From Desulfogranum japonicum DSM 18378 (GTDB lineage: Bacteria > Desulfobacterota > Desulfobulbia > Desulfobulbales > Desulfobulbaceae), in contig NZ_AUCV01000014.1 of NCBI RefSeq assembly GCF_000429945.1, positions 62,001 to 126,000 of the forward strand: 64,000 nt of DNA, in the 5' to 3' direction. Position 1 is the stretch's first letter. Each line of letters starts with the position of its first letter. The position numbers and the translations under genes were made by a program. Shown here in pieces: positions 29,818 to 64,000 of this stretch. Below the pieces are notes generated by a model. That model saw only the letters and a program-made list of their open reading frames with translations. It did not search any database and was not told the origin of the DNA.

Positions 29818-30075
29818 TCAGATGTTTTTTTGAATATATGAAGACAGGGTAGCCAGCGACTGTAATACATCTCGGCTGGAGTTTTCATTGTCCATGCGGA
29901 CCCCGTAAGTCTGCTGGACGGTTACAGCAATTTCAAGGGCATCGATGGAGTCTATGCCTAACACGGACTCCGGGCCGATGAGTGGGGCATGTGTGTTGAA
30001 GTATTGTATCTCCGGCATCTCCAGGTTACAGGTGGTACAGATCAATTCAAGTAGTTCTTGTTCAAAAGATTCCAT
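29818..30075 (-). CDS. Acyl carrier protein (ACP 1)
   Basis: 85 residues from ATG 30075 (a TTG at 30090 would add five). The phosphopantetheine site is LGIDSIDALE, with the Ser at residue 43 in the G-[IL]-D-S motif, followed by the usual helix III. Two Cys near residues 13-16 (CTTCN) are unusual for an ACP. It is the last gene of the minus-strand locus, 66 bp after the ABC permease. It is therefore the candidate carrier whose acyl chain the BtrH-like protein transfers or the ABC exporter's substrate carries. No phosphopantetheinyl transferase is seen in the window. Confidence 0.87.
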   Translation of the reverse strand: MESFEQELLELICTTCNLEMPEIQYFNTHAPLIGPESVLGIDSIDALEIAVTVQQTYGVRMDNENSSRDVLQSLATLSSYIQKNI

Positions 30076-30141
30076 TACATTTTTGCTCAATATACAGATG
30101 CAGGTCCATTGACCTGCATTTCTTTTTTAGACGGATACTTC

Positions 30142-31440
30142 TTAACGCAGTCTTTTTCGGGAGCTGATCAACCAGGAGAGAAAACTCGAGAGGATGAAAA
30201 AAGCTACGAGCTTACCGAGATCTTCAGCGACCGCAGTGAGGGGATTGCCCCGGACAAGCAGATTCTGAAAGGCTGTCAGACCCCAGTTAAGGGGGGAGAG
30301 CTGACTTACCTGTTGCATGGTACTGGGCATGGCATATACAGGCACCATGATACCTCCCAGCGCGGCAGCAGCCACAACGGTGGTAGCGCCAACCGTGGAT
30401 GCCTGTTCATACGTTGAACAGAGATTTCCCAGCAATAACCCGTATCCGCAGGCTGCCAGCCCGCTACACAGGACGACGAGCAGGGCTGCCAATGGTTGTT
30501 CGCCAAGGGAAAAAGGGGTAAGCCCGATATACGGAAACAGATACATACCGATAAGGCAGATAACCATGAACTGACTGAGGCAGATCCCGATATATGCTGC
30601 CACCTTACCCAGTTGAAACGAAGCCTGGGAAACCGGTGAGGATACCAGTCTGGCCATGATTCCGGAGTTACGCTCCTGGAGAATACTGCCTGCAATGGGG
30701 ATGGCTGTGAAAAACATGCCGAACAGGGCCCAGGCCGGAACATTCTGTTGGGTCGGGCTGTATGCCGGGAGCTGTTGTTCCTGCAGGGTGGAGGTCTCGG
30801 TAAAGGTGAGCAGGGGCTGTGCCGGATTATTCTGCTGGCTGGTTGTTTCTGCTTGTTGCGGGGGAGGAGGAGTCAAATCGGTGGACGATGGCACGCCTTC
30901 AGCTAAACTCCTTTGTATCCATGCCATTGTATATTGCAGGGATAACAGCTCCGCTGCCATGTCAAGCTGTGCTGTAACCCCGTTGCGCAGCGACGGCAGG
31001 AGGGTAGGGTCAATCACCATGGAGAGTTGTACGGGGTCATCAGTGACCGGTTGTTGCGTGGAACCTGCGGCGCCAGCTATCTGCCTCGCCTTTTCCTGGA
31101 GAGCAGCAGATGTGCCTTGTGGTATGATCAGTCCAAACTGATAGTCTCCTGAGTGTACTGCTGTAACCAGGTCTTCCCTTGTATGCTCGGTGGTTGACCA
31201 GGAGGTGAGTGCAATGTTCAGGGACTCCAATCGTTGCCGGATAATATTGCCTAGTTGCTCCTGATCCATGTCCAGCAGGAGCATGGTGGTTGGTTTCTGG
31301 CCTGTCAGGGCCATCACATTTTCCTGCACCAGGGTAATGATAACCACCAGGATGGCAGGCATGAGAAACAGGACCACCAGGCCGGCCCGGTCCCTGCGCA
31401 GCAGCAGTAATTCCTTGGCTGCAACAACAAACAACTTCAT
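30142..31440 (-). CDS. ABC-2 type transporter permease
   Basis: 432 residues from ATG 31440, overlapping the ATPase stop (TGATG). One N-terminal TM (about residues 20-40, after KELLLLRRDRAG) is followed by a large soluble extracytoplasmic domain (about 45-240, with a Pro/Gln-rich stretch near 190-215). Five to six further TMs form the C-terminal half, including the conserved ERNSGIMARLVSSPVSQASFQLGK region. This is the ABC2_membrane_3 (YhgE/NatB/LinK-like) layout. It should pair with the ATPase encoded upstream to export a lipid or amphiphile from the cytoplasm. Its place between ACP 1 and the BtrH-like gene suggests a lipidated product as cargo; the cargo is unknown. Confidence 0.85.
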   Translation of the reverse strand: MKLFVVAAKELLLLRRDRAGLVVLFLMPAILVVIITLVQENVMALTGQKPTTMLLLDMDQEQLGNIIRQRLESLNIALTSWSTTEHTREDLVTAVHSGDYQFGLIIPQGTSAALQEKARQIAGAAGSTQQPVTDDPVQLSMVIDPTLLPSLRNGVTAQLDMAAELLSLQYTMAWIQRSLAEGVPSSTDLTPPPPQQAETTSQQNNPAQPLLTFTETSTLQEQQLPAYSPTQQNVPAWALFGMFFTAIPIAGSILQERNSGIMARLVSSPVSQASFQLGKVAAYIGICLSQFMVICLIGMYLFPYIGLTPFSLGEQPLAALLVVLCSGLAACGYGLLLGNLCSTYEQASTVGATTVVAAAALGGIMVPVYAMPSTMQQVSQLSPLNWGLTAFQNLLVRGNPLTAVAEDLGKLVAFFILSSFLSWLISSRKRLR

Positions 31441-32219
31441 CAATCCCGCACCTGTTTGCCTGTGAGCTGGAGGAACAATTCTTCCAGGTTTTTATGATTC
31501 GAGTTGTGGAGTAGTTCCTGTGGCGTGCCCATGGCGATCATTTTACCGTGATCTATGACGCCGATGCGACTGCAGAGTTTTTCAATTTCTTCCAGGTAAT
31601 GGCCGGTGTACAGGATAGTGGTTCCCTGGCTGTTCAATTCCAGCAGGGCATTGTGGATCATGTGTCTGGACTGGGTATCCACACCGACAGTGGGCTCGTC
31701 AAGGATCAGAACCTGTGGTTGGTGAATCAGGCCTGCAGCCAGGTTCAGGCGCCGTTTCATGCCTCCGGAAAACGATGTCACCTGATCCCTGGCACGTTCA
31801 ACCAACCCTGCAACGGTAAGGGAACGTTCGATCTGCTGCTGCAAGGTGGCACCACGCAACCCTTGGAGCTTTCCGAAAAAGGAGAGATTTTCCCAGGCGG
31901 TCAGGGGGTCATAGAGTGCTATATCCTGAGGTACCAGTCCTGTCAGTTGTTTGATCTTTCCGGCCTGGGATACTACGTCATAACCCAGTACCGTGGCTGT
32001 ACCTGTATCAGGCAGGGCAAGGCCTGAAAAAATGGACACAGCAGTGGTCTTGCCAGCGCCATTGACTCCCAGCAGACCGAAAAAATCACCCTGCTGGATG
32101 GTGAGTGTAAGGTTATCCAGTGCAGGGGAGCTGGTTCCTCGATACTGTTTGCATATTTCTCTGGCCTCAAGAGCCGGTAAAGGGTTCCCTTGTTCTTGCG
32201 AGGTATTTCTGGGCCGCAT
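31440..32219 (-). CDS. ABC transporter ATP-binding protein
   Basis: 259 residues. I start at ATG 32219, one base after the stop of the BtrH-like gene; the longer open frame upstream is the shadow of that gene. Motifs: Walker A GVNGAGKTT (51-59), Q-loop GLVPQDIALYDPLTAWEN, signature FSGGMKRRLNLAAG, Walker B VLILDEPTVGVD and H-loop YTGHYLEE. It is of the DrrA/NatA/CcmA export type. It forms the ATPase dimer for the ABC-2 permease encoded next, and one permease gene implies a homodimeric or fused-function exporter. The tight coupling with the BtrH-like gene suggests a shared product. Confidence 0.93.
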   Translation of the reverse strand: MRPRNTSQEQGNPLPALEAREICKQYRGTSSPALDNLTLTIQQGDFFGLLGVNGAGKTTAVSIFSGLALPDTGTATVLGYDVVSQAGKIKQLTGLVPQDIALYDPLTAWENLSFFGKLQGLRGATLQQQIERSLTVAGLVERARDQVTSFSGGMKRRLNLAAGLIHQPQVLILDEPTVGVDTQSRHMIHNALLELNSQGTTILYTGHYLEEIEKLCSRIGVIDHGKMIAMGTPQELLHNSNHKNLEELFLQLTGKQVRD

Positions 32220-32220
32220 A

Positions 32221-33234
32221 TTATTGCTGATCATCCAGCCATGTACGCAGGTTGGAGAAAACCTGTTCTTCTTTTGCCGCACATTCCCGCAATGTGGCAG
32301 CCATGGCCTGATAAGTGTCTTCTTCCCGTGGACGGTCCTTGCAAACCCTTGCCGCAGATGCTGCAAATGCACGCCAGGTATCGCCTGATTGGGTAAACAG
32401 GGCAGCACATTGTTCAAGATACGGGTCCTGGAGAAGCGTTGCACTCTCCTGGAGAAAGGCCGCATACATAAAGCGAAATCCACCGCCACCTGTGCCGATT
32501 TCTTCCTGCATGCGTACCACATGGCCCAGGTGCAGATCAGCTCTTTCTTTTCCTAATTTGTGTGGCCATTTCTCAAGTCTCTTGGCCAGAAAACGAATTC
32601 CCTTAACACCGATAAGAGGAAAAGGTGAGCCAATCATCAGCTTGCAGACAAAGCGGATACCTTCTGTGATGAAGTGATGGTGATCAATGGTTTGCGGCGT
32701 TTGAGTGAAGTAATACATTTTCCCTTTGGGAGCCAATGCTCCAGAGGCAAAACGGGCCCGGGTCATGTCTGCGACGGGACAGCGAACAGGCGTGGGAAAC
32801 ACCGGGTCACTTACCAGGTAATCGTCGCCCTCTCTGCCATACACTACCAGATTGTGGGCATTGAAGTGAAAGCGGAGTGCCCTTGGGAAATATGGAAGCC
32901 AGAAAACCCCTGTCTGCAGGCCCACAGGAATGGATTGCGCCAGGGCTGCATCCAGCTCAGCCACTGCCTGTTCTTTATCCCTGAATTGCTTCTGGTGCAT
33001 GGTGAACCCGGGAGCGTTGGCGAAATGTTTCAGGATGCCTCCGGCAGCAGCACGGTAGGTTACCAGGGGCAGGTTATGCAGGCGGATAAAGGGCAGGTAG
33101 CCGAAAAAGAGGCCTCCCCCCATTCCAAAGGCCATGGCTTCGGACATGGGCAACCCCTTGTGGGTAAGCAGGTTGCTGCATACGCCGCTCTCGCAATGGG
33201 CAGATTGGGAATGGGTAAAATCAACAGGCTGCAT
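32221..33234 (-). CDS. BtrH-like acyltransferase (BtrH N-terminal plus DUF4872-like)
   Basis: 337 residues from ATG 33234, with GGAGAGG 4 bp upstream; it overlaps the preceding gene by 14 bp. The N-terminal HCESGVCSNLLTHKGLPMSEAMAFGMGGGLFFGY (about 13-46) is the hallmark of the BtrH_N fold, with the HC...N...G...SE..afG.g.G.gF.Y pattern. LPYFPRALRFHFNAHNLVVYG and YLVSDPVF add the papain-like His/Asp region. The C-terminal helical half resembles DUF4872. BtrH moves a gamma-glutamyl-GABA-type acyl group from an ACP to an aminoglycoside amine in butirosin synthesis. Here an analogous transfer of an acyl chain from a locus ACP to an amine or hydroxyl acceptor is the natural inference. Cys14 is the candidate nucleophile. 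Confidence 0.8.
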   Translation of the reverse strand: MQPVDFTHSQSAHCESGVCSNLLTHKGLPMSEAMAFGMGGGLFFGYLPFIRLHNLPLVTYRAAAGGILKHFANAPGFTMHQKQFRDKEQAVAELDAALAQSIPVGLQTGVFWLPYFPRALRFHFNAHNLVVYGREGDDYLVSDPVFPTPVRCPVADMTRARFASGALAPKGKMYYFTQTPQTIDHHHFITEGIRFVCKLMIGSPFPLIGVKGIRFLAKRLEKWPHKLGKERADLHLGHVVRMQEEIGTGGGGFRFMYAAFLQESATLLQDPYLEQCAALFTQSGDTWRAFAASAARVCKDRPREEDTYQAMAATLRECAAKEEQVFSNLRTWLDDQQ

Positions 33235-33652
33235 GTTCCTCTCCCTGTTCTGTGCCATAAACTGGTGCTCGCAGTTTTCCCTGCTGCAGATCTTCGACCG
33301 TGACATCAAAGATGTCAGCATATTTTTGCAGGGTACCGGTTCCCAGTCGTTTAAAAAACAGGGGCAGGGTGTGCAGGTAGACGACAATTCGGAGCTGATT
33401 GCTGTACTTGGCCAACAATCCTGTATCCATGTGGTTGATAACCATGTAATAGCGCAGGCAACTCCAGCTGCCACGATGGATTTTCTCTCTGGTGTGCTGA
33501 ATCTGTTTTTCGATTGCGTCCCAGGCTTGCCGGTTGACTATATTTACCGGTTGCCACATATCTCCGGATATCAACTGTTGCCTGCCGTCGTTGCCAGCCT
33601 GGTAGCTGACAGTGGCAATGCCGTTGGTGACGCTTTGTTCTTGCTCTGTCAT
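33221..33652 (-). CDS. Hypothetical protein next to the BtrH-like gene
   Basis: 143 residues. It is basic-to-neutral and has no signal or TM. The middle (WSCLRYYMVINHMDTGLLAKYSNQL) and the C-terminal segment RLGTGTLQKYADIFDVTVEDLQQGKL recall the second half of an XRE-type helix-turn-helix (LaklfgVsvdeLl.G) but a full HTH is not evident. I do not recognise the family. It overlaps the BtrH-like gene by 14 bp and is therefore very likely translated with it, which suggests a helper or partner of the acyltransferase. The upstream gap to the PagL-like gene is 82 bp. Confidence 0.65.
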   Translation of the reverse strand: MTEQEQSVTNGIATVSYQAGNDGRQQLISGDMWQPVNIVNRQAWDAIEKQIQHTREKIHRGSWSCLRYYMVINHMDTGLLAKYSNQLRIVVYLHTLPLFFKRLGTGTLQKYADIFDVTVEDLQQGKLRAPVYGTEQGEEHAAC

Positions 33653-33734: not shown

Positions 33735-34340
33735 TTAAAACGAAACGCCGAATAAAACTTTCCACGAATTCAGCGGATCATTGGGTTCCTCACTGCCGCC
33801 ATTGGAAATATGGTGATAGCGAACTTCAAATAGTAAATCATGTTCAGATATACTGTGGTATTTGAGACCTGCTCCAAACTGGTAATTGCCGTTCAGGTCA
33901 GCTCCCATGCCAGGGATATCTGCAAAGTTATACACCGGCCCACCACCACCGAACAGGTATGGTTTCCAGACGGTGTTTGCTGTAAAGGTGTAGGTGGCCA
34001 GAAAATTCATGCCCACCATGGCGGAGGTATCCGGGCTGACTACAACAGAAACAGGTAACTCCAACAGTATGGAGTGAAAGCCCCTGTACCATCCTGAGCC
34101 GATATTGTCAAAGATGATGTGATTGTAGCGAGGGATAATATCCAGAGTTTCCACGCGCTGGGTGGTTTGGCCCCAGTCGGGAACGCTTTGACCATATCCT
34201 CCAAGGAGAGCCCAGTTATCTTTTGATGTGTCGAAGGCGGCATGGGCTGCCGGAGAATACAGGCAACAGGTGAGATTGAGCATGGCGAATACGGCTTTCC
34301 AGGACCAGTTGGCCTGTATAACAGGTAGATATTGTTTCAT
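33735..34340 (-). CDS. PagL-like lipid A deacylase / acyloxyacyl hydrolase family barrel
   Basis: 201 residues from ATG 34340, which gives a convincing signal peptide ending SPAAHA; upstream in-frame starts would only add an unlikely basic extension. The mature part is an eight-strand-type outer-membrane barrel with Gly/aromatic-rich strands and a final strand ending in Phe. The diagnostic motif is EVRYHHISNGG, the HxSN region of PagL with catalytic His177 and Ser179. The third residue of the triad (Glu about 12 residues on) is not where I would expect it (Asn there), so activity needs testing. In the lipid locus it may trim acyl chains from lipid A or from the exported glycolipid at the outer membrane. 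Confidence 0.75.
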   Translation of the reverse strand: MKQYLPVIQANWSWKAVFAMLNLTCCLYSPAAHAAFDTSKDNWALLGGYGQSVPDWGQTTQRVETLDIIPRYNHIIFDNIGSGWYRGFHSILLELPVSVVVSPDTSAMVGMNFLATYTFTANTVWKPYLFGGGGPVYNFADIPGMGADLNGNYQFGAGLKYHSISEHDLLFEVRYHHISNGGSEEPNDPLNSWKVLFGVSF

Positions 34341-34497
34341 GGTGTTTTTCACGTTTTTCCTGGCTGTTTTATTCAAGGTTCCCATCAATGTCCTTACCCT
34401 CAGCATACATGACTATACCACAGACAATCTACAGGCCATCTTGAATAATTGCTTTTTCGTCCAATCTCAGGGGTTATACTTAAAAAAACATCCTCAA

Positions 34498-34648: not shown

Positions 34649-35455
34649 TCAGCATCTATTTTCCGTAGAGGAATTTACAAGTTCTTCAAGGGGAACAACC
34701 GTGTGGGTTGTGCTCACCACCTGTAGCAGACGGTCCAGTTCTGTTTGCCATTCAAGGAAACGGTCCTCTTCATCTGGCGCGATATCGTGGAGCAGGATAA
34801 TACAGCCAGGTTGGAGGCATCTGGTAATTTTTGCCGCAAGTGCACGTACGGTTCTGTTTCCCCTGTCATACGCACGGCAATTGGCAGAGACAGCGGTAAG
34901 TTGTTCTCGGACGAGTACTTTTGTTAAGCGTGGCCCGGTGATACCGACAGGAGGGCGAAAAAAGACCGGCCTGGAACCAAGCTGGCTCAGTACATATTGG
35001 GTTTTTCTTACTTCGCTTGCGATGGTTCGCTGTGTCCGCAGCATGAGCGTATAATCATGATTCCAGGAATGGTTGCCGATGCTGTGCCCCTGACGTAAAA
35101 TCTCTTTGACTATCTCCGGGTATTGCTGTGCTTTTTTACCTATGAGGAAAAAGGTTGCAGTGAGATTGTGGCGTGCAAGGAGTTTCAGAACCACAGGGGT
35201 GGAAAGAGGAGAGGGGCCGTCATCAAAAGTGAGCGCAATATCTCGTGCCTGCCTGGAACCACGGCTGATCACTGGCAGGTAAAATCCCACTGTGGAGAGG
35301 AATGGTGCCCATGCGCAGACAAGGAGAAACAAACACAGGGGGATCAGGGACCAGAAAGGATGCAGGAATGCCAGCACCATGGCCAAGCCGATACTTAGCA
35401 TGCCGGTCTTTTCGGCAAGGGTCAGGGGATTTTGTGGGTGAGGTAACATCTTCAT
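34649..35455 (-). CDS. NodB-type polysaccharide deacetylase, membrane-anchored
   Basis: 268 residues from ATG 35455. Two N-terminal TM segments (about 15-60) lead into a NodB homology domain: TFDDGPSPLSTPVVL (motif 1, Asp pair), HSIGNHSWNHDY (motif 2, H-x3-H), FFRPPVG (motif 3) and the late ILLHD (motif 5 His). These carbohydrate esterase 4 residues point to a metal-dependent N-deacetylase acting outside the inner membrane, or at its cytoplasmic face depending on orientation. Because it lies 4 bp after the MMPL-methyltransferase stop, its substrate is likely a glycolipid made by the locus; a free amine so produced could be the acceptor for the BtrH-like acyltransferase. That link is speculative. 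Confidence 0.85.
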   Translation of the reverse strand: MKMLPHPQNPLTLAEKTGMLSIGLAMVLAFLHPFWSLIPLCLFLLVCAWAPFLSTVGFYLPVISRGSRQARDIALTFDDGPSPLSTPVVLKLLARHNLTATFFLIGKKAQQYPEIVKEILRQGHSIGNHSWNHDYTLMLRTQRTIASEVRKTQYVLSQLGSRPVFFRPPVGITGPRLTKVLVREQLTAVSANCRAYDRGNRTVRALAAKITRCLQPGCIILLHDIAPDEEDRFLEWQTELDRLLQVVSTTHTVVPLEELVNSSTENRC

Positions 35456-35459
35456 GGGC

Positions 35460-53772: not shown

Positions 53773-53797
53773 GGAGAGAGTGCTTGGAATATATGGG

Positions 53798-54058: not shown

Positions 54059-54311
54059 AAAAAACACTTCATTACGTTGTGCCCACCCTGTAAAGGCCTT
54101 ATTGCCGGATGTCCACTTCGTGGTACTGAAAAATTATTACGGAACATCAATCATGTGCTGGTGGCAATGAAAGTCGTATGCTGTACATGGTAACGGACTT
54201 TGTATTTCCGGGCCGACACTACTTCAGAAAATTTAAGGTTAATCGCGGATAGTACACAGTTTGTGATGAATTACAAAGAAATAATTCCCCGGAAATGACA
54301 GGAGGTCCAAG

Positions 54312-55181: not shown

Positions 55182-55882
55182 CAGTGCCCTTGTCCAAAAA
55201 TACGAGCACAAATGAGCCTGGAAAAAGTTGCCGAGTTGCGCATGAAATCAACCCAGGGGCGAAAATGGCTGATACGTACACCCGGTGGCTGATACACCAC
55301 ATGCACATCAGCTTCTCTGGTGGGAATACCGTTTCTTTTCGCTTTCACCAGCACTTCCACTTCATATTGATATCTCCTGGCCTTGACATGGAGCTGGAGA
55401 ATTTCTGGGAGTGGGTAGATTCTGAACCCGGACTGGGAATCGCTTACCCTTGGGCCTCCGGAGACCCATACCCAAAAATTGGAAAAACCGCGCCCGAAGC
55501 GACTGGTCCAGGGAACATTACCATCCTGATTCATACCCAGACGACGTCCAAGTACAATGCAACGTTCATTGTCATGTACGCTGTTCAACAGGTTGAGAGC
55601 ATCTGAGGGGAGATGCTGGCCGTCGCCGTCCAGGGTAATGGCCCAGGAAAAGCCCTTTTCGGCAGCCGCCCGAAACCCGGTGAGCAGGGCAGCGCCTTTG
55701 CCATGATTATTCGCGTGATGCAGCACCTGGATGGTGTCGAAAGCGTGCAAACGTTTCCTGGTTGAATCCGTTGAACCGTCATCAACCACGATAATCGGTA
55801 ATCCGGTTGCAAGAGACTGCTCAACAACTGAGCTGACTCGGCTTTCGTGGTTATAGACGGGGATGATGATGACTGCCTGCAT
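55181..55882 (-). CDS. Glycosyltransferase family 2 (DPM-synthase-like)
   Basis: 233 residues, GT-A fold. VIIIPVYNHESRV starts the domain, IIVVDDGSTDST gives the first Asp pair, ITLDGDGQHLP is the DxD region and NNHGKGAALLTGF is a typical GT2 loop. No TM is seen, so it is cytoplasmic or peripheral. It resembles the GT2 half of ApeJ-type proteins. It likely adds a sugar to the lipid acceptor that the LpxL-like protein then acylates. The gap to the DAK2-DegV gene upstream is 45 bp. Confidence 0.9.
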   Translation of the reverse strand: MQAVIIIPVYNHESRVSSVVEQSLATGLPIIVVDDGSTDSTRKRLHAFDTIQVLHHANNHGKGAALLTGFRAAAEKGFSWAITLDGDGQHLPSDALNLLNSVHDNERCIVLGRRLGMNQDGNVPWTSRFGRGFSNFWVWVSGGPRVSDSQSGFRIYPLPEILQLHVKARRYQYEVEVLVKAKRNGIPTREADVHVVYQPPGVRISHFRPWVDFMRNSATFSRLICARIFGQGH

Positions 55883-57640: not shown

Positions 57641-58995
57641 GTATTCAGCAACTGGTTGATAGCTTCCCGGTCGTATTTGCCGTTGGATTTTACAGGAATA
57701 TGGTCCACACACCTGATGCAGCGGGGCAGGGCGTAGGGTTCCAGTGCTTCTGCCAGCATCTGTTTCAGGGTGCTGACCTCCACCTCGCCTTCCACCAGGG
57801 CACCTATCCAGGACTCTCTGCCTCCGGGATCTGCAAACGACGTTACGACACAATCGATGACATCCGGTCGTGCCTTGATCAGAGAACTGATGGTGTCGAG
57901 ATCAACGCGCTTGCCACCAACTTTGATAACCGTATCAGCCCGTCCCTGTAGCCTGAATGCGTCTGGTCCATCTGCAGCGACACGGTCCTGGGCAGTGAAA
58001 AAGCCGTGTTCATCCACAGGCAGGGTGGAGGAAATATAGGGTGAGTGTACTGCCAGACATTCGTTCTTAACTTTCCATTCAATGGAGGCAAAAGGAGTGA
58101 AGGCTTCTTCGCCCTTTGATCTGTTTCGGGTCGCAATGCCGCCTGTTTCCGTTGAGCCGTACACCTCGATGATGCCTGTTGTATTCCCTTTGCAGAATAT
58201 GGTGTTATCCTGTTCCGGAAGCATGCCTGCGGATGAAAATGCCAGACGCAAACCAAGGGCTTTGCTGCCCAGGGCCCGATAGTGGGCTGGCACGCTGGCC
58301 ATGATGGTCGCATTGCAGGCTGTAGCGGTGCTGACGATTTCACCGGGAAACGAGGGCGTCTCGTCAATGACCGCTGCAGAAGAGACCAGGGGCATGATAA
58401 CGGAAAACAGCAGGCCGTATATATGATAGGGCGGGATGGTTGCCAGAATGACATCTTGTTCTGTTACCGAAAACCTGTGCCTGTGAAAGACACCTTCGCC
58501 AACAAGGTTGTATGGCGTTTTAGGCCAGAGCTGGGGCGCCCCGGTTGATCCACCTGTATACAGATGGAGAAATGTCGTATCTGGTCGTCTCAATCCGTTC
58601 AGCTGGACTGGCGAGGCCGCAGCCAGTTCTTCCATTGAAATTACCCGACTGCCCCGGGGGATATCGCGTGGCACATCTGTGATAATCGTGTCCAGCAGGC
58701 CCTGCTTGTGCATCTCATGCAAAGCCCGTCCTGAAAGGGCAAATGGCAGCAACAGATCCGGTCCTCCGCCCAGGGAGGCAAGTATCGCTGCAGCGATTAC
58801 TGCCTTGTTTTCAACCGCAAGGCAAATGGAATCAGGTTTCTTGCCCCCTTGCAGAAGCGAAAGTATCCGACCCGCCATTGCATATACCTCGGCTCTTGTG
58901 GTTCCATGGTATATGAATTCCCTGTCAGGTTGCTCCGGCTTCTGGATCAGTTTTGCCAGAACGTGTTCGGTCTCACGTTGAAAATCTGTTGTCAT
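57637..58995 (-). CDS. AMP-forming acyl/aryl-ACP (CoA) ligase (ApeH-like)
   Basis: 452 residues from ATG 58995. Adenylation motifs: LYTGGSTGAPQLWPKT (P-loop variant), IPPYHIYGLLF (A4 region), IEVYGSTETGG (A5), ADTVIKVGGKRVD (A8) and SNGKYDRE (A10 catalytic Lys). At about 450 residues it is shorter than usual acyl-CoA ligases, as ApeH-type ligases are. It activates the starter acid or the finished acyl chain with ATP and loads it on an ACP. No chorismate lyase, tyrosine ammonia lyase or aryl hydroxylase is seen in the window, so an aromatic starter is not supported here. The gene overlaps the B12-type radical SAM gene by 23 bp. Confidence 0.88.
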   Translation of the reverse strand: MTTDFQRETEHVLAKLIQKPEQPDREFIYHGTTRAEVYAMAGRILSLLQGGKKPDSICLAVENKAVIAAAILASLGGGPDLLLPFALSGRALHEMHKQGLLDTIITDVPRDIPRGSRVISMEELAAASPVQLNGLRRPDTTFLHLYTGGSTGAPQLWPKTPYNLVGEGVFHRHRFSVTEQDVILATIPPYHIYGLLFSVIMPLVSSAAVIDETPSFPGEIVSTATACNATIMASVPAHYRALGSKALGLRLAFSSAGMLPEQDNTIFCKGNTTGIIEVYGSTETGGIATRNRSKGEEAFTPFASIEWKVKNECLAVHSPYISSTLPVDEHGFFTAQDRVAADGPDAFRLQGRADTVIKVGGKRVDLDTISSLIKARPDVIDCVVTSFADPGGRESWIGALVEGEVEVSTLKQMLAEALEPYALPRCIRCVDHIPVKSNGKYDREAINQLLNT

Positions 58996-60262
58996 CAAAC
59001 CTGCTCACTGTTTTGCCAAAAGCATGACTGCTCAAATTGCGATCACGGGGCTTGAAGGTATTGCTCATCATTTCCTTACGGACAACCTGTTTGAAGAGCT
59101 TGGCCATTTTTATGTGCTGCGGTTCGTCATGGTAAAAAGTATCCCAGGCATAATCAAGCAGTTCCTGCAACCTTTCAGGGCTCATGTGCTTGGGCTGATA
59201 GACCACGCGGTCTGCGGAGTAGTCATTCCAGTCCCTGGAAATAATCCTGTTTTCCTTGTTGAGAGCTTCATACGCCTTGGTATGGGGGAATGGCGCAAGC
59301 ACCGTGAACTCGGCCAGATCCAGGTCGATCTCGAGCAGAAAATCGATGAGACGTTTGATGGAGTCTTCTGTATGATTATCAAGACCAAGGAGGATTGTGC
59401 CCTCCACTCCGATGCCATGGTCATGGTAGCGTTTAACGCGTTCACGGATGTAATCTGAAGTATCGAATACAGCCTGGTACACATACCAGGCTCCTGCCTG
59501 GGCAGCCAGGTCAAGAACTTCGGGTTTATCTTCAATGGGGTGGCAGCACCAGTTTTTTTTCAGGGGAATCATTTCCCTGAACAAATCCATTTCCCACTGG
59601 GTATCCTGGGCCAGGGAATTGTCCACAATGAAAAGGCGGTTGTTATCGATTCCGGCTATTTCGCTGATGGTCTTGTCAATGGGACGGGGGCGGAACTGTC
59701 TGCCGCCAAGGTAGGAGACCGCGCAGGGATAACAGTGGAACCGGCATCCCCTGGAGGCATGCACCAGGTCCACCATCTGCACGCCTTTGTAATTATAGAG
59801 TTCCCGTTTAAGGATATCTCTGCGGGCAGGGCCTACCAGTGCTATATCAGGCCTGTCATCAATAAAGTTATAACATGGTTGCAACGCATTGTTGCGAAAA
59901 TCAGTCAGCACGTCTTCCATGCGTCCTTCTGCTTCTCCCAGAAAGACAGCATCCGCATGGAGCATGGTCTCCTCTGCATGGAGCATGGTGGCGATCCCGC
60001 CGAATATGACTTTTACACCCCTTTTGCGAAATTCATCTGCTATCTGCCACCCTCTCTTTGCCTGGATTGTGAGCATCATGGAAATACCAACAAAGTCGAC
60101 AGGGTTGTCAAAATCTATTTCTTCCAGGTTTTCGTCGATGAATTCAACCTCTACATATTCCGGAAGGGTTGCCGCAAAAACAACTGGCCCATGGGGAGGA
60201 AGGTGAAATTCAGTCTGTCGGTCAAGTTTTGCCCATTTGGGATAGATAAGTTTGAACTTCAT
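58973..60262 (-). CDS. Cobalamin-binding-type radical SAM enzyme (B12-rSAM) B
   Basis: 429 residues. The N-terminal B12-binding-like domain (about 1-140; VEVEFIDENLEEI, DFVGISMMLT, VIFGGIATMLHAEE) lacks DxHxxG. The radical SAM motif is C173-x3-C177-x2-C180 (HASRGCRFHCYPC). The C-terminal part (about 370-429) is helical with KLFKQVVRKEMMS. It differs from B12-rSAM A in length and tail, and so probably in substrate. It lies between the ApeN-like lipoprotein and the acyl ligase genes, overlapping both (4 and 23 bp). It may methylate or cyclise the acyl chain or a headgroup. Confidence 0.88.
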   Translation of the reverse strand: MKFKLIYPKWAKLDRQTEFHLPPHGPVVFAATLPEYVEVEFIDENLEEIDFDNPVDFVGISMMLTIQAKRGWQIADEFRKRGVKVIFGGIATMLHAEETMLHADAVFLGEAEGRMEDVLTDFRNNALQPCYNFIDDRPDIALVGPARRDILKRELYNYKGVQMVDLVHASRGCRFHCYPCAVSYLGGRQFRPRPIDKTISEIAGIDNNRLFIVDNSLAQDTQWEMDLFREMIPLKKNWCCHPIEDKPEVLDLAAQAGAWYVYQAVFDTSDYIRERVKRYHDHGIGVEGTILLGLDNHTEDSIKRLIDFLLEIDLDLAEFTVLAPFPHTKAYEALNKENRIISRDWNDYSADRVVYQPKHMSPERLQELLDYAWDTFYHDEPQHIKMAKLFKQVVRKEMMSNTFKPRDRNLSSHAFGKTVSRFDDNRFST

Positions 60263-60915
60263 TTCACGGGAACCGCATTCAATAATTTCATGTTAAGTGA
60301 ATATCCTCGCATGCCATATGCGTTAAGACTCAGCTTTTGGGGGAACTGCGCCTGATCTGTTGAGGAACTCCAGCAGCCTGTGACGCTTCGCGTACGTTCA
60401 TGGGTGAAGGTGTACTGGTTGACTGTCCAGCAATTTTCTGTTTTGGGATGCACATCTGTTACCGCCCCGGAACCGGCAGTGAAGCGGCATGTGGCCATCT
60501 CGTCTGCGTCTGTGCCGAGCTGCAACGCGCCCTGAGGTCTTCTGAAAATGGTTTGAATATCGTGCATCAGGCCTGCTGCAAAGCCCTGGCTGTCGAAAGG
60601 CGGTAGGGCTTTTGTTACATCCAGTGCTCCGGCCTGATCTGATTCAGCTTCAAACAGAGTTAATCCTTCGACAGTGAGCAGTGCACTGCGTATGTGTTCT
60701 CTGGTCAGGGTTGTGACACCAAGCAGTGTAGAGCCGTGTCCATTGGCTTGCCGAAAGCTGATGGAGTGAACAAACTGCCAGCCATTACCGGGAAAAACAG
60801 CATTGCAGGCCTGCGCCGTAAGATTATCCGGCTGCAGGTTCAGTTCCGGTAGCTGGGAGTGATTGGCAACTGTACAACCGGAGAGGAGCAGCACGGTAAA
60901 AAGCAGGTGTTTCAT
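60259..60915 (-). CDS. DUF3261-like outer-membrane lipoprotein (ApeN-like)
   Basis: 218 residues with a lipoprotein signal: MKHLLFTVLLLSGC, lipidated Cys14. The mature domain has FPGNGWQFVHSISFRQANGHGSTLLGV (about 41-67), the DUF3261 beta-rich core, and ends with a Cys-containing segment. In APE loci the matching lipoprotein (ApeN) accompanies the LolA-like carrier and MMPL exporter in moving product to the outer membrane. Here the order is the same: the gene overlaps the LolA-like gene by four bases (ATGA). Residue identity with the family was judged by eye only. Confidence 0.75.
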   Translation of the reverse strand: MKHLLFTVLLLSGCTVANHSQLPELNLQPDNLTAQACNAVFPGNGWQFVHSISFRQANGHGSTLLGVTTLTREHIRSALLTVEGLTLFEAESDQAGALDVTKALPPFDSQGFAAGLMHDIQTIFRRPQGALQLGTDADEMATCRFTAGSGAVTDVHPKTENCWTVNQYTFTHERTRSVTGCWSSSTDQAQFPQKLSLNAYGMRGYSLNMKLLNAVPVK

Positions 60916-61571
60916 TTTCCGGTAAAAAGTTCTGCGGCTATAGGCTTGTTCAGTACCCGGTTGGTAAAAGTCATTTGGGTATAACAGCCAGGGCCTTCGT
61001 GAATGGTAACAGATTCCAGGAGACCGTCCCGGTTGGAGAGATGCAGTTCGATCTTGCCGATCAACCCGTCAAGCATTCCTGGTCTGGGAGTTAGCATGAC
61101 ATGGGTCTTGTCAGGGAAGGAAACTGTAAACATCGCATTGTCAGTGAACCGGCCGTCGAGCCAACCGGCAATTTCAGCCATGATAACCTGCATGGACCCC
61201 ATTGCTCCGGCTGGTTCCTCCTGCAGTGTGCCGTCTGTGTCCATGTATTTTTTAATAGTGTCGCCGTGCATCAGGAGAATGGAGCGTACCGGTGAGTGGT
61301 ATTCCCAGCGCAGGGATGAAGGTGCCTGAAAAGAGAAAATGCCGGTTGAGCGAATGGGTTGTACCAGCATCTTCATGTGCTTTTCCTGCACAAAATCAGC
61401 CTGGATGGAGCTGATATGTACAGTGGCGGACTCTTCTGTTGCAGCTGTGATCATACAGGTGGAGAGAACAAAGACTGCACATAAAAGAAATGCCTGAAGC
61501 CGTTTGCCGGATTTTTTCCCCGAGCATGGCGGACGGCTGCCCCCGATAAGGGGGATACAGATAGCTTTCAC
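60912..61571 (-). CDS. LolA-like periplasmic lipid carrier (ApeL-like)
   Basis: 219 residues, GTG start overlapping the reductase stop (TAGTG). The N-terminal export signal is somewhat long (AFLLCAVFVLSTCMITAA, residues 27-44). The domain has HISSIQADFVQEKHMKMLVQPIRSTGIFSFQAPSSLRWEY (about 52-91), the LolA fold signature, and ends with a helix-strand pattern typical of ApeL. It would carry a hydrophobic product across the periplasm from the MMPL exporter to the outer membrane, with the DUF3261 lipoprotein. The long basic N-terminus (about 26 residues before the hydrophobic core) may instead mean a later start, but none with a good SD is seen. Confidence 0.82.
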   Translation of the reverse strand: MKAICIPLIGGSRPPCSGKKSGKRLQAFLLCAVFVLSTCMITAATEESATVHISSIQADFVQEKHMKMLVQPIRSTGIFSFQAPSSLRWEYHSPVRSILLMHGDTIKKYMDTDGTLQEEPAGAMGSMQVIMAEIAGWLDGRFTDNAMFTVSFPDKTHVMLTPRPGMLDGLIGKIELHLSNRDGLLESVTIHEGPGCYTQMTFTNRVLNKPIAAELFTGK

Positions 61572-62308
61572 TAGACCATCCCACCGTTCACTGAAATGAC
61601 CTGTCCTGTGACGTATGATGCGGCATCAGAGCAGAGGAAAGAGACAACGCCGGCAACTTCTTCGGGCTTACCTATGCGTGCCATGGGAATCAGGCTCTTT
61701 ATATGTTCTTTAGGTGCATCCTGCACCATATCGGTTTCTATCAGGCCGGGAGCAACTACATTTACCCGGATACCGAGACGGGCGACTTCTGCAGCTATTA
61801 CCTTGCTGGCAGCGTTGATGCCTGCTTTTGCAGCTGAATAATTTGCCTGGCCGCGGTTGGCAACCAGGGAAGATGCAGAGGACAATGAGACAATTGTGCC
61901 TTGGCGCCTGCGTACCATTTTTTCAATGACCGGGCGCGTCATGTTGTAAAAACCATGAAGGCTGGTGTCCAGCACCTTGGACCAGTTTTCCCTGGACATC
62001 ATCATGAAAAGGCCGTCTGCTATCACGCCTGCATTATTGATCAGGATATCAATCTGTCCCAGGCGAGTGGCTATGTCTTCAACCACCTGCTCGGCCTGTT
62101 CAGCCTGGCGGACGTCAAACTGATATATTTCACCTGCTCCGCCGGCCTTTTTTACCTCTGCCAGGGTTTGTTCAGCCCCTGGCCGATCACTCATGTAGTT
62201 GACGATTACATAACAGTTGTTGCGGGCAAGATCCACGCAAACTGCCCTGCCTATGCCTTTGCTGCCGCCGGTGACAATGGCGACACGTCTTGCTTCTGTA
62301 TTGGTCAT
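61571..62308 (-). CDS. 3-oxoacyl-ACP reductase (FabG/ApeQ-like)
   Basis: 245 residues, classical SDR. The Rossmann motif is TGGSKGIGRAV (about 14-24), NNAG at about 91-94, catalytic Ser in SLSSASS and Tyr-x3-Lys in YSAAKAG, and the C-terminal GQVISVNGGMV is typical of FabG. It reduces 3-ketoacyl-ACP with NADPH. With the ApeP-like dehydratase (14 bp upstream) and the ketosynthases it completes an elongation cycle that lacks an enoyl reductase; no FabI-, FabK- or FabV-like gene is seen. The cycle should therefore leave double bonds in place and make a polyene. That is the strongest sign that the locus makes an unsaturated chain. Confidence 0.94.
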   Translation of the reverse strand: MTNTEARRVAIVTGGSKGIGRAVCVDLARNNCYVIVNYMSDRPGAEQTLAEVKKAGGAGEIYQFDVRQAEQAEQVVEDIATRLGQIDILINNAGVIADGLFMMMSRENWSKVLDTSLHGFYNMTRPVIEKMVRRRQGTIVSLSSASSLVANRGQANYSAAKAGINAASKVIAAEVARLGIRVNVVAPGLIETDMVQDAPKEHIKSLIPMARIGKPEEVAGVVSFLCSDAASYVTGQVISVNGGMV

Positions 62309-62322: not shown

Positions 62323-62757
62323 TTATGCTTGAAAGAGCTGGAGAATGATGGTGGCCACACGTACATCATCCATGAAGACCTCACAGGCTGTTTCCCGTAG
62401 GTTCTCAAAGACATGGGTGTTTTCTGCCGTTGAAATTATAGGGGCATCGTAGGGAAGGGGGCCCACATCAATTTCTGCTTTTTTGATACCAACCAGCCAG
62501 CCCATCTGGTTGGAATCCAGTCCCTGGGTATGGATTCGGTCCCACCCGTTGCATACACCCGCAGTCTGTGCTGCAAGTTCAATCAGAATAAGGGGATCAA
62601 CACCTTCATCTTGTGCAAAGGGCCATTTTCTGTTCACCCTGGCAAGGGTTTTTGCCCGCGTGCTGTCCACGGCCAGAACCTGGTCAACCAGCAGCATGTT
62701 ATCACGATGGGGAAGAAGATCTTCCAGGCTGAGCTCGGAAAGTGTGTACAATTTCAT
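62323..62757 (-). CDS. ApeP-like 3-hydroxyacyl-ACP dehydratase (hotdog)
   Basis: 144 residues. LSLEDLLPHRDNMLLVDQVLAVD (His17, the FabA/FabZ-type catalytic His) and ILIELAAQTAGVCNGW (active-site Glu) mark the ApeP family of APE loci. It probably forms a heterodimer with the small ApeI-like protein. It is the first gene of the large minus-strand operon; the promoter should lie in the 564 bp to the divergent ACP 4 gene. A TATAAA 50 or so bases before the ATG is a possible -10 box but without a convincing -35. Confidence 0.87.
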   Translation of the reverse strand: MKLYTLSELSLEDLLPHRDNMLLVDQVLAVDSTRAKTLARVNRKWPFAQDEGVDPLILIELAAQTAGVCNGWDRIHTQGLDSNQMGWLVGIKKAEIDVGPLPYDAPIISTAENTHVFENLRETACEVFMDDVRVATIILQLFQA

Positions 62758-63321
62758 TGGTTTATGCAGTTTCTGTGTGCCTTGGCCCTACCAGGGGATT
62801 TATACAATCAGGTAACTGCTCACAGTGCATCTGATTTTTCCGCGATCAGCCTGACTTACGTATGCCCAATACGCTGCGCCAGCCTGCTTGCGAAAATCTC
62901 AGGCACCCTGTAACCAGTTACAAATACGGGGGAGTTGTTAACATAATCGTCTCCCCTATGAGTAGTTATAAAATCAGATGACAAATTCATATGGGCAATA
63001 TATGGTATATAGCATGATTTGAGAATCGGTACAATTCTTTGCATGTCTGTATCTGTGCAAGTAACGAGTCATATGGGGTAACCCGCTGTGATATGGCATC
63101 ACCCTGCAACCATGGCTGTTCAAAACCCGATTCTGCATACTTGTTTGTGGTTACACGTATACTGTTTCACGCAGGTGCGTATTACATAAAAATCGTCAGC
63201 TCGTCATTCAATATATACTATAAGAGGAATTGCGTGCTACACCGCTGGTGCCGAAACCAGTGTTGCGATCCTATTTCGCAATCGTGGAACCAGCGTATAG
63301 GGATGAGAGTGTTTCAGTTCT
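62758..63321. promoter_or_regulatory. Divergent intergenic region between the two arms of the lipid locus
   Basis: 564 bp between the ApeP-like gene (minus) and ACP 4 (plus). It must hold promoters for both arms. It contains a degenerate copy of the MITE-like element (62812-62921) close to the minus-strand start. From 62922 to 63321 I see no open frame with gene-like features and no clear sigma-70 boxes. ATGAGAGTG...TTCAG precedes the ACP 4 ATG without a strong SD. Confidence 0.55.
62812..62921. repeat. Degenerate MITE-like element in the divergent promoter region
   Basis: The inverted ends are GTAACTGCTCACAG (left) and CTGTAACCAGTTAC (right), close to GTAACTGATCACAG of the full copies. Inside, CATCTGATTTTTCCGC and GCGAAAATCTCAGG form a second inverted pair, as the inner hairpin does in copies 1 and 2. 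It is about 110 bp long. It lies roughly 55 bp from the start codon of the ApeP-like gene, so it could carry or disturb that promoter. Confidence 0.55.
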
Positions 63322-63588
63322 ATGAATAATCTGATAGAAGAGCTTAAAATAAAACTGGTGGATATTCTGAACCTGCAGGATGTCAAACCGGAAGATATCG
63401 ATGAAAATGCCCAACTGGTTGGTGGGGAGTACGGTATCGATTCCATCGACGTACTGGAAATGGTCGTCATGGTGGAGAAAGACTATGGTGTGGAGATAAA
63501 TAACCAACAGGTTGGGGAAAAAGTGTTTTCCTCCCTCGCTAATCTTGCCGCTTATATTTCAGAAAATTCACCCCAGCCGATTGCTTGA
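63322..63588 (+). CDS. Acyl carrier protein (ACP 4)
   Basis: 88 residues with EYGIDSIDVLEMVVMVEKDYGVEI; the phosphopantetheine Ser is residue 41. It is an acidic four-helix type, similar to ACP 1 and ACP 2 near the Ser. It starts the plus-strand arm and overlaps the following ketosynthase start by four bases (TTGA). This suggests a dedicated ACP-KS pair as with ApeE/ApeF and their ketosynthases. Confidence 0.9.
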   Translation: MNNLIEELKIKLVDILNLQDVKPEDIDENAQLVGGEYGIDSIDVLEMVVMVEKDYGVEINNQQVGEKVFSSLANLAAYISENSPQPIA

Positions 63589-64000
63589 AGAATACACGCG
63601 TTTTTATTTACGGTACCGGCATTGTCAGTGCCCTTGGTACCGGAGTAGTTTCTACTGTTCAGTCCCTTCGCCAGAATCAATCAGCTATACGGCCGCTTGA
63701 TCTTTTTACCCTTGGCCAGGGAGAACCCTTGCCTGTAGGGCAGGCAGACTTTCCCGAAGACCCTGCATCGGTTCTTCCCAGAACTCACCGCCTAGCGTTC
63801 CAGGCTGCCACCGAAACCATGCAGGACGCAACGTGTGTTCCGGATGCTGTGGTTATTGGTACAACCACCGGCGGCATGCTGCAGACAGAGCAGCTCCTGC
63901 GCAGTCATTGTGCTGATGCGGCCTGTTATGGATATCATGGTCTTGGAACGGTAGCAGAATATCTTGCCACTGAATTTCACTGCACCGGCCCGGCTGTTAC
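63585..64000 (+). CDS. Beta-ketoacyl synthase (KS 4), N-terminal part, cut by window edge
   Basis: The frame from TTG 63585 is open to the end of the window (138 codons). It starts MKNTRVFIYGTGIVSALGTG, the thiolase-fold ketosynthase opening, and continues with VVIGTTTGGM, matching the FGS..GG / TTTGGM region, and FHCTGPAV just before the active-site Cys would appear. The start codon overlaps the ACP 4 stop (TTGA), and I saw no other in-frame start. The type (true KS or a chain-length factor without Cys) cannot be decided, because the active site lies past 64000. It resembles ApeO/ApeC-type ketosynthases of APE loci. Confidence 0.8.
   Translation, partial: MKNTRVFIYGTGIVSALGTGVVSTVQSLRQNQSAIRPLDLFTLGQGEPLPVGQADFPEDPASVLPRTHRLAFQAATETMQDATCVPDAVVIGTTTGGMLQTEQLLRSHCADAACYGYHGLGTVAEYLATEFHCTGPAV

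Follow-up and report, generated by a model that had tools for sequence, protein, structure and literature searches.

The window analysed here, that is, the whole stretch of 64,000 nt, belongs to a bacterium that probably avoids O2 and contains a gene cluster of about 40 kb, which exceeds the right end and reaches window-equivalent position ~69640 (beyond that end, window-equivalent coordinates are L001 positions plus 58000). On the whole, the cluster combines an APE-type backbone, a DAR module and seven radical SAM (rSAM) genes, and it is similar to systems known to make a coloured lipid of the outer membrane, in which a polyene is linked to a ring of the resorcinol type. Five of the rSAM genes lie inside the window (at 43552, 44557, 49076, 50275 and 58973), as the initial annotation had claimed, and the larger cluster adds two cobalamin-rSAM genes and a DarB-type ketosynthase (KS) just past the right end. 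The four KS and four ACPs claimed there are likewise present, the KS genes at 41011, 42290, 52525 and 63585 and the ACP genes at 29818, 45613, 53798 and 63322; the KS gene at 63585 is truncated by the window end and fused to a CLF-like half. A whole-genome scan gives 59 rSAM matches per 5.8 Mb, with 6 in the 39.8-kb cluster stretch where 0.4 are expected (P ~4e-6), a count that excludes rs5 (the gene at 58973), which the scan overlooked; the clustering is therefore not due to chance. Among 33 adjacent gene pairs, 16 overlap and 8 are spaced by 0-20 bases, measured on listed ORF starts of which three are inferred, in keeping with the translational coupling proposed earlier. The claim of a missing enoyl reductase also holds, as none is among the Pfam matches of the scanned ORFs of the cluster, and its sole SDR is a ketoreductase (KR) by NCBIfam. 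The backbone and envelope genes are listed below.

33735..34406, minus, PagL-like outer-membrane protein (PF09411 49.5 bits)
34649..35518, minus, polysaccharide deacetylase, arcN counterpart (PF01522 105 bits)
35460..38504, minus, MMPL exporter fused to a class I methyltransferase (MMPL 56.8, Methyltransf_25 48.1 bits)
38513..39235, minus, GT25-like glycosyltransferase (PF01755 22.4 bits, below cut-off 24)
45951..46265, minus, ApeI-like dehydratase (PF22818 39.8 bits over 28.5)
46487..49057, minus, GDYXXLXY / DUF4401 / DUF2157 membrane cassette (domain matches)
51759..52547, minus, PlsC-type acyltransferase (PF01553 70.4 bits)
52525..53820, minus, ks3, ApeR-type ketosynthase (best PDB matches 4ewg, 322 bits, and 7f27, 306 bits)
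53798..54067, minus, acpC, ACP (PF00550 25.3 bits)
54312..55211, minus, LpxL-like acyltransferase (PF03279 42.6 bits)
55181..55882, minus, GT2 glycosyltransferase (PF00535 81.6 bits)
55928..57640, minus, FakA-FakB (Dak2-DegV) fatty-acid kinase fusion (start inferred; DegV 131, Dak2 59 bits)
57637..58998, minus, AMP-dependent acyl ligase, ApeH/arcT counterpart (PF00501 75.9 bits; best NCBIfam 4-coumarate-CoA ligase, 98 bits, below cut-off 334.7)
60259..60915, minus, DUF3261 / LolB-like lipoprotein (PF11659 21.7 bits, 0.6 short of cut-off 22.3)
60912..61571, minus, LolA-like carrier (PF03548 51.1 bits; nearest flexirubin LolA2, NF053544 98 bits, below 125)
61571..62308, minus, ketoreductase, FabG/FlxB-like SDR (NF004200 FabG 295.8 over 273; NF053542 FlxB 292.8, below 340)
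62323..62757, minus, ApeP-like dehydratase (PF22817 18.9 bits, below cut-off 27)
63322..63588, plus, acpD, ACP, opening the divergent arm (ORF and sequence)
63585..64000 in the window, to window-equivalent 65765, plus, fused KS-CLF (best PDB 7f28_B, 205.7 bits)

This set has the features of an APE locus, with an ApeO-ApeC-type KS-CLF, an ApeR-type KS, KR and a dehydratase pair, the LolA/MMPL/DUF3261 set, and no ER. Among solved structures, KS-CLF is nearest to ApeO and ks3 to ApeR; in the available text of PMC8358021, 7f28 is the ApeO-ApeC entry, 7f27 is ApeR and 4ewg an ApeR homologue. From the gene set drawn up by the initial annotation, the KR, ApeI-like, ligase, LolA, MMPL, PlsC-, LpxL- and GT2-like members pass Pfam, while the ApeP-like and DUF3261-like ones miss their cut-offs. 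The ApeP-like dehydratase keeps its His in 23 of 26 and its Glu in 26 of 26 aligned sequences, and all 40 aligned homologues of acpD have the Ser that carries phosphopantetheine. By our own tally against the list in the available text of PMC8253772, 16 of 18 E. coli ape functions have a family-level counterpart here, ApeA and ApeG being absent. With the APE loci of E. coli (apeA-R, PMC8253772) and A. baumannii (ApeO-ApeC/ApeR, PMC8358021), as the available text describes them, the cluster shares KS-CLF, ApeR-type KS, KR, ApeI, ligase, 4HBT, LolA, MMPL, and DUF3261-like, PlsC-like, GT2/LpxL-like and methyltransferase genes; unlike them, it has KS and CLF fused, GT2 and LpxL as separate genes, and additional rSAM and DAR genes, and no aryl source is recognised in the genome. 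Since neither an aromatic amino acid lyase (PF00221, including tyrosine ammonia-lyase) nor UbiC (PF04345) was found in the genome, the 'aryl' nature of the polyene is unproven here; the chorismatase model PF21168 matches none of the sequences searched and is thus silent on this genome. Across 46 homologous loci, the polysaccharide deacetylase is present in 22, a counterpart of the FakA-FakB fusion in 19 and the PagL-like gene in 7, and the MMPL-methyltransferase fusion is seen again in relatives. The membrane cassette at 46487..49057 is absent from all 46 loci read and is therefore probably an insertion outside the pathway.

The rSAM genes and the core genes around rs1 and rs2 are as follows.

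39717..40535, minus, psdh, PS-DH double-hotdog dehydratase, core (PF14765 42.8 bits)
40535..41011, minus, hbt, 4HBT thioesterase, core (PF13279 40.2 bits; TIGR00051 83.7 over 68.7)
41011..42276, minus, ks1, FabF-like ketosynthase, core (PF00109 128.6 bits; best PDB matches FabF)
42290..43540, minus, ks2, FabF-like ketosynthase, core (PF00109 103 bits)
43552..44550, minus, rs1, rSAM, core (PF04055 29.3 bits, just under cut-off 29.5)
44557..45612, minus, rs2, rSAM, core (PF04055 22.5 bits, below cut-off 29.5)
45613..45879, minus, acpB, ACP, core (PF00550 40.5 bits)
49076..50101, minus, rs3, rSAM-SPASM protein (PF04055 88, SPASM 38 bits)
50275..51762, minus, rs4, cobalamin-binding rSAM (B12 domain match; best NCBIfam BchE, 156 bits, below cut-off)
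58973..60262, minus, rs5, cobalamin-type rSAM (B12 28.8, rSAM 21.3 bits, both below cut-off)
65762-67120 (window-equivalent, beyond the window), plus, rs6, TIGR04072-class cobalamin-rSAM (391.7 over 360)
68300-69640 (window-equivalent, beyond the window), minus, rs7, HpnR-like cobalamin-rSAM (HpnR 173.6, below cut-off 650)

All seven rSAM proteins carry CxxxCxxC. Three of those in the window, rs1, rs2 and rs5, fall under the Pfam cut-off, though their motif is invariant: CxxxCxxC and four C-terminal Cys are kept in 49 of 49 rs1 sequences, the Cys motifs in 48 of 48 for rs2 and CxxxCxxC in 29 of 29 for rs5, a few loci being entered twice in these alignments. rs2 is a paralogue of rs1 (30% identity). 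Structure prediction yields weak models for both (pLDDT 72 for rs2, 58 for rs1), that of rs2 showing a generic rSAM fold. The active sites of the other core genes are intact, with the Ser of acpB, the C-H-K-H of ks1 and the His of psdh in 47 of 47 aligned sequences each and the C-H-K-H of ks2 in 46 of 46. The order acpB-rs2-rs1-ks2-ks1-4HBT-PSDH is kept in 41 of the 46 homologous loci, where rs2-rs1 lie between acpB and ks2 in a single direction, Spirochaetes and SAR324 MAGs included. Because rs1/rs2 and the two KS keep this order, the comparison supports the rSAM genes as a constant part of what appears to be an APE-type type II polyketide synthase locus; the initial annotation had named two outcomes that would speak against it, rSAM genes belonging to an unrelated known pathway in homologous loci, or an ordinary aryl polyene made with these genes deleted, and neither was encountered.

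The DAR module, which that annotation overlooked, occupies 29818-33652.

29818..30090, minus, ACP, DarC-like (PF00550 26.1 bits over 20.8), then the ABC permease, ABC ATPase and BtrH-like gene
30142..31443, minus, ABC-2 transporter permease (PF12698 115 bits)
31440..32234, minus, ABC transporter ATPase (start inferred; PF00005 96 bits)
32221..33234, minus, DarH by NCBI naming, BtrH-related acyltransferase (start inferred; NF053550 470.8 bits over 300)
33221..33652, minus, DarG-family DAR biosynthesis protein (NF053536 92 bits over 70)
67142-68296 (window-equivalent, beyond the window), minus, DarB KS (NF005293 StlD/DarB 535.3 over 450; narrower DarB model 435.3, below 550)

DarB, DarG and DarH all exceed curated cut-offs and are accompanied by the ABC pair and ACP. 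Enzymes of the DarB family condense two acyl chains into a ring. The presence of the module points to a polyene-DAR ester, and flexirubin is such a polyene acid esterified with DAR. With flexirubin (PMC3992019; NCBIfam Flx/Dar models) the locus shares the DarG/DarH families and FlxB- and LolA2-like genes; in contrast, its FlxB and LolA2 matches stay under cut-off and its genome has no tyrosine ammonia-lyase. According to the available text of PMC3949708, the arcuflavin genes (arc and dar) of Azoarcus sp. BH72 share with it a KS and an N-terminal-KS (CLF-like) gene, KR, dehydratases, ligase, LolA, exporter, GT, acyltransferases, methyltransferase and polysaccharide deacetylase, and in the DAR part darB, a BtrH-like gene, the ABC pair and ACP. 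The Azoarcus run darC, darI, darF, darE matches the order of the module, and two small genes within that dar run are not seen in the locus. Unlike arcuflavin, the locus has no DarA match and no halogenase among its Pfam matches, and has in addition seven rSAM, two FabF-like KS, PS-DH and FakAB; FakAB, ks1/ks2 and PS-DH are without known role in arcuflavin. In the host's order, rs2 is found in 94 of 257 sampled genomes, and DarH in 70 of these 94 against 34 of the 163 rs2-free ones; some of the 24 rs2 genomes without a DarH match are incomplete assemblies.

DarA also occurs within the order. A DarA-like protein of genome G339, so called from its position beside darB, finds no match in the present genome at E 1e-15; it matches flavodoxin weakly (20.9 bits), and none of the family models gives it the name DarA. 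In Streptomyces, a homologue of this protein adjoins ACP and KAS III. Among 104 DarH genomes, 33 have DarA only, 61 have rs7 only, 10 have neither and none has both; within 3 kb of darB, rs7 stands in 12 and a DarA-like gene in 4 of the 16 darB loci read. As rs7 and the DarA-like protein never co-occur, rs7 may replace DarA. The split follows mainly two DarB clades, so independent swaps are few.

On this evidence, we regard it as an even call that the locus specifies a polyene-dialkylresorcinol (arcuflavin/flexirubin-type) pathway in a form that works without O2 and yields an rSAM-tailored outer-membrane lipid. The APE-type synthase (fused KS-CLF, ApeR-type KS, KR, ApeP/ApeI-type dehydratases and ACPs) would make an ACP-bound polyene, and the core module with the cobalamin-type rs5 and rs6 would modify or build part of the acyl chain while ACP-bound. 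DarB would join two acyl chains into the ring, rs7 in DarA's place would aromatise or C-methylate it, and DarH would esterify polyene and ring. The GT2, LpxL-, PlsC-like and FakAB proteins would serve to attach acyl chains or to recycle them, and delivery of the lipid to the outer membrane would fall to MMPL-LolA-DUF3261. Gene content, conservation, intact active sites and the mutual exclusion of DarA and rs7 are observations; polyene synthesis, esterification and export are read from protein families, and every radical step is one that we only infer. Weighing against this reading are the lack of a lyase or UbiC as aromatic starter enzyme, the 24 rs2 genomes in which DarH has no match, and the genes without known role in arcuflavin.

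The core module rs2-rs1-ks2-ks1-4HBT-PSDH might alternatively make a small acyl product of its own, a starter or a DarB chain, and leave the polyene untouched, which we hold to be somewhat unlikely. The module owns an ACP, a KS pair, a dehydratase and a thioesterase, no aryl starter source is recognised in the genome, and KS-CLF at 400 bits is found in only 22 of 46 loci, many of these sequence stretches ending early; on plasmids, distant rs2 homologues adjoin ACP, NRPS, thioesterase or MaoC genes (three contexts read out of 15 records). However, polyene-type genes often adjoin the module (acpD in 34, rs6 in 30 and KR in 28 of 46 loci). Equally doubtful is that the rSAM enzymes just methylate, so that the product would be a conventional polyene-DAR lipid bearing methyl groups. 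In favour of this, B12-domain matches occur in four of the seven (that of rs5 below cut-off) and rs7 is nearest to the hopanoid C-methylase HpnR; against it, Pfam finds no such domain in rs1, rs2 or rs3, and rs4 is nearest to the cyclase BchE.

It is unlikely that the locus is of the ladderane-candidate or anaerobic PUFA type (Rattray 2009), making polyunsaturated or cyclised membrane fatty acids and not an envelope pigment. The Desulfobulbales precedent mentioned in the initial annotation is real, as the Kuenenia and Desulfotalea psychrophila clusters are reported to be syntenic in the available text of Rattray 2009 (PMC2649909), and these FASII clusters share with the locus divergent KS paralogues, several ACPs, rSAM genes, ligase, membrane transport protein, GT, methyltransferase and deacetylase. 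D. psychrophila also has C31:8/C31:9 hydrocarbons, FakAB and PlsC fit a product handed on to glycerolipids, and rs6 passes the cut-off of TIGR04072 'rSAM_ladder_B12'. Yet rs6 (~391 bits) lies outside the group at 555-629 bits found in 39 genomes of the order, other matches listed being at most 401 bits, and rs2 is rarer with this group, which 7 of the 94 rs2 genomes and 32 of the 163 others carry (p 0.01). High-scoring loci in G195, G505 and G524 carry phytoene-dehydrogenase-like and PaaK-type genes without rs1/rs2, the family assignment of the pair being checked for G524; the present locus has neither gene, and the G524 phytoene-dehydrogenase-like query finds none in it at E 1e-10. Judged on the published description, this second type appears to fit the Desulfotalea/Kuenenia cluster better, so the ladderane likeness as first worded is not supported, and the present locus is probably its sister type. 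The G524 ligase is itself nearest to flexirubin FlxY (438.6, cut-off 520), and the DAR module together with LolA-type export suggests the outer membrane as destination. On the other hand, both types are adjacent in G516, in G527, G533, G535, G537 and G538 only 7-8 kb separate rs2 from a high-scoring TIGR04072 gene, and weaker phytoene-dehydrogenase-like genes (138-188 bits) occur near seven type-A loci (G339, G376, G047, G039, G083, L039, L040). That the rSAM genes are passengers without link to lipid synthesis is most improbable, given the conserved place of rs2-rs1 even in Spirochaetes and SAR324 MAGs, and this analysis found no evidence for it.

Returning to the polyene-dialkylresorcinol pathway, a bolder and rather improbable version is that rs1 and rs2, conserved next to two extra KS, form new C-C bonds in the ACP-bound polyene, giving a carbocyclic or cross-linked lipid of the envelope that has not been described before, with rs7 a ring-modifying or aromatising rSAM that displaced the flavodoxin-like DarA. 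If the polyene-dialkylresorcinol reading as such is right, more than one third of the order's sampled genomes would hold a pathway for an envelope lipid that has yet to be studied, with radical enzymes working on intermediates of type II polyketide synthesis. Its hosts, in contrast to anammox bacteria, may be amenable to culture, and it would be a relative in which the unsolved ladderane question becomes testable. That reading also predicts that rs7 performs the DarA step or renders it needless.

The cluster lies in a host genome of 5.8 Mb in 124 contigs and spans from 29818 to about window-equivalent 69640, that is, 5.6 kb beyond the window end. The five radical SAM (rSAM) genes that the initial annotation had claimed in the window are all found there, and two further ones, both with B12 domains, are located outside. 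A genome scan gives 59 rSAM matches in total, and the cluster stretch holds 6 of them against an expectation of 0.4. The rSAM genes rs1 to rs7 and the dialkylresorcinol (DAR) module are located as follows.

29818-33652, with the DarB gene beyond the window: DAR module (DarB, DarH, DarG, ABC pair, ACP)
43552, start: rs1, radical SAM
44557, start: rs2, radical SAM
49076, start: rs3, radical SAM, SPASM
50275, start: rs4, radical SAM
58973, start: rs5, radical SAM
Beyond the window: rs6 and rs7, radical SAM, B12 domains

At 46487-49057, a GDYXXLXY / DUF4401 / DUF2157 membrane-protein cassette stands between cluster genes; it is present in 0 of 46 homologous loci and looks like a recent insertion.

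On the whole, the cluster is a real, deeply conserved gene system. It is best classified with the polyene-DAR (arcuflavin/flexirubin-like) pathway, as a variant rich in rSAM genes, rather than with the ladderane-candidate type. The strict one-strand order acpB-rs2-rs1-ks2-ks1-4HBT-PSDH is kept in 41 of the 46 rs2 loci compared (own locus excluded), and the notion that the rSAM genes are mere passengers is rejected on this ground. The exceptions are G077, which is rearranged, G085 and L043, without acpB at the threshold, G171, which meets a contig end, and L033, with ks2 in two pieces; G085 and L043 are probably one contig (79166 bases each), which makes the 46 loci 45 distinct ones. Among the 46, rs1 is present in 46, ks1 in 45, ks2 in 44, rs6 in 30 and rs5 in 24, the lower counts for rs6 and rs5 coming partly from contig ends and limited stretches, mostly of at most 40 kb. 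Matches to rs2 are found in 94 of the 257 genomes of the host's order and in 31 of 395 sampled genomes of the phylum, three of the latter (G018, G025 and G202) having distant homologues only; the loci of G202 and G368 were left out, and nine further rs2 loci were included from the search of the order, a non-random choice with the TIGR04072 position among its criteria. Identity in rs2 is 72-75% to the four nearest loci that bear a name, among which are a Desulfobulbus and a Desulfobulbaceae MAG, so that the host's order is probably Desulfobulbales; over 11 named MAG loci the identity to ours is 70-87% for rs1 and 64-74% for rs2. Named MAGs extend the rs2 loci to Spirochaetes and SAR324. A tree built from four core proteins places the two Spirochaetes amid other Desulfobacterota and does not keep the order's families apart, a pattern suggesting that the core moved by transfer. 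The alignment of rs1 and rs2 shows CxxxCxxC plus four invariant C-terminal cysteines, which could hold a second cluster; the AlphaFold models of both proteins are weak, the C-terminal cysteine region included. A fold search with the rs2 model returns the general rSAM fold only, with no mechanism indicated, PDB searches with rs2 and acpB give generic matches only, and a scan of viral contigs with rs6 finds no relative.

The aryl polyene (APE)-like set described in the initial annotation holds up: KR, ApeI- and ApeP-like dehydratases, ligase, LolA, MMPL, DUF3261-like, PlsC, LpxL-like and GT2 genes are all present, and a 4HBT gene as well. The fused KS-CLF (beyond 63585) has the top PDB matches 7f28_B (205.7 bits), 9s5h_B (201.3) and 6qsp_A (195.0), and the ketosynthase ks3 has 4ewg (322 bits) and 7f27 (306 bits). 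According to the available text of PMC8358021, 7F28 and 6QSP are ApeO-ApeC, 7F27 is ApeR and 4EWG an ApeR homologue; by sequence match, KS-CLF is thus nearest the ApeO-type structures and ks3 nearest ApeR. The ketosynthase ks1 is FabF-like, and the highest model score of ks2 is also FabF, below cut-off. The catalytic residues are invariant in every aligned homologue of all four ketosynthases (47, 46, 16 and 24 sequences). Two proteins come near flexirubin models, KR to FlxB (292.8, cut-off 340) and LolA to LolA2 (98, cut-off 125). The methyltransferase half, searched for kinship with the anammox AmxMT1 (PMC9821293, available text), gives no match so named. Neither an aromatic amino acid lyase nor UbiC is found in the host genome, so that "aryl" is unproven for the polyene of our locus. 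Of the order's 94 rs2 genomes, 18 have such a lyase, as do 17 of the 163 genomes without rs2; five loci (G516, G527, G535, G537 and G538) have it with a high-scoring TIGR04072 gene nearby, the one in G535 being confirmed as PF00221 (539 bits), and a weaker homologue is present in four further loci (G134, G039, G085 and G077).

The proteins of the DAR module exceed the cut-offs of their families, with 535.3 bits versus 450 for DarB (NF005293), 470.8 versus 300 for DarH, and 92 versus 70 for DarG. In Azoarcus, arcuflavin is the product of a DAR module working together with polyene clusters; the arc genes there and our locus alike include polysaccharide deacetylase, methyltransferase, LolA, ligase, GT and acyltransferases (PMC3949708, available text). 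Among the 257 genomes, DarH is found in 104 (at E 1e-3; 102 exceed the cut-off), rs2 in 94 and both in 70, with a Fisher p of 2e-17 that is overstated since the genomes are kin.

In 16 darB loci, a flavodoxin-like protein is found at most 3 kb from darB in 4, while rs7 is there in 12, ours included. We take the flavodoxin-like neighbour to be DarA from its position by darB and its Streptomyces homologue, which adjoins an ACP and KAS III; none of the family models confirms the name. In Azoarcus, darA comes after darB (PMC3949708, available text). Across the order, 36 genomes have a strong DarA-like match (250 bits or more), 62 have rs7 (counted only at E at most 1e-80), and 0 have both; the DarA-like query matched 60 genomes, 24 of which, at 81 bits or less, were left out of the DarA count. 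The 104 DarH genomes divide into 33 with DarA only, 61 with rs7 only, 0 with both and 10 with neither. Both states occur within the same genera (g250, g8 and g4). Since the DarB tree has mainly two clades, with G505, an rs7 bearer, falling in the DarA clade, one or a few replacements plus transfer would explain the pattern. The host's presumed anaerobic life style alone would not be a sufficient cause of the swap, because DarA is present in other genomes of the same order. In two DarA-type loci, G500 (L128 13378-16305) and G339 (L140 2747-5710), a protein of 976-988 residues lies near darA.

The ladderane-locus precedent that the first reading had named, with a related set in Desulfobulbales, proves real. 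As far as the available text of Rattray 2009 (PMC2649909) goes, the Kuenenia clusters have rSAM genes, phytoene-desaturase-like genes and divergent FabF, and are syntenic with Desulfotalea psychrophila, which makes C31:8 and C31:9 hydrocarbons, not ladderanes. No new fatty acids appeared when most of the candidate Kuenenia genes were expressed in E. coli, many of the proteins being insoluble or undetected (PMC4790861, available text). Clusters that antiSMASH calls "ladderane" are reportedly expressed in a number of phyla, including Desulfobacterota (PMC9902471, available text). In the order, TIGR04072 ("rSAM_ladder_B12") scores 555-629 bits in 39 genomes and at most 401 in the others among the matches listed, ours having 391. 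The gene rs2 is rarer with this high group (7 of 94 rs2 genomes versus 32 of 163 others). The high-TIGR04072 loci G195, G505 and G524 have an APE-type set with a phytoene-dehydrogenase-like gene and a PaaK-type ligase, without rs1/rs2; family models assign the G524 pair to PF01593 and AMP-binding/PaaK-like. The closest model to the G524 ligase (L162 17784-19121) is that of FlxY, the ligase of flexirubin synthesis (438.6, cut-off 520), so this type also looks flexirubin-related, hinting at a common ancestry of ladderane-candidate-like and flexirubin clusters. We take the high-TIGR04072 loci, which match the published description, to be the Rattray type and ours probably a sister type; ladderane membership of our locus is not adopted, as the second type fits better. 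The split is blurred by weaker phytoene-dehydrogenase-like genes near seven loci of the rs1/rs2 type, by rs5 and rs3 homologues common to both types, and by rs7 with DarB in G195 and G505. In G516 (L157-L159), a high-TIGR04072 APE-type set and the rs1/rs2 type adjoin on one contig.

A literature search, with subscription papers and preprints mostly outside its range, found no description of such a system and no mention of "TIGR04072"; the papers pairing dialkylresorcinol with radical SAM appear to concern other enzymes.

Distant rs2 homologues are also found in 15 plasmid records, and in the three contexts read, ACP, NRPS, thioesterase or MaoC genes are nearby, which is consistent with a carrier-protein-bound substrate. 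The Methylomagnum ishizawai plasmid (L125) has at 13362-22154, in a row, an ACP, a TauD/TfdA dioxygenase, an rs2-like protein annotated as hypothetical and a large NRPS. On the Burkholderia stagnalis (L126) and Alteromonas macleodii (L127) plasmids, the rs2 homologue comes immediately after a gene annotated as "phenylacetic acid catabolic protein" and is followed by one for a thioesterase or MaoC; two genera thus have this small cassette in common. A plasmid labelled Enterobacter hormaechei (NZ_OR497351.1, 177444-178454) has an rs2-homologue score identical to that of the Alteromonas plasmids; the island may have been transferred, or the record may be mislabelled.
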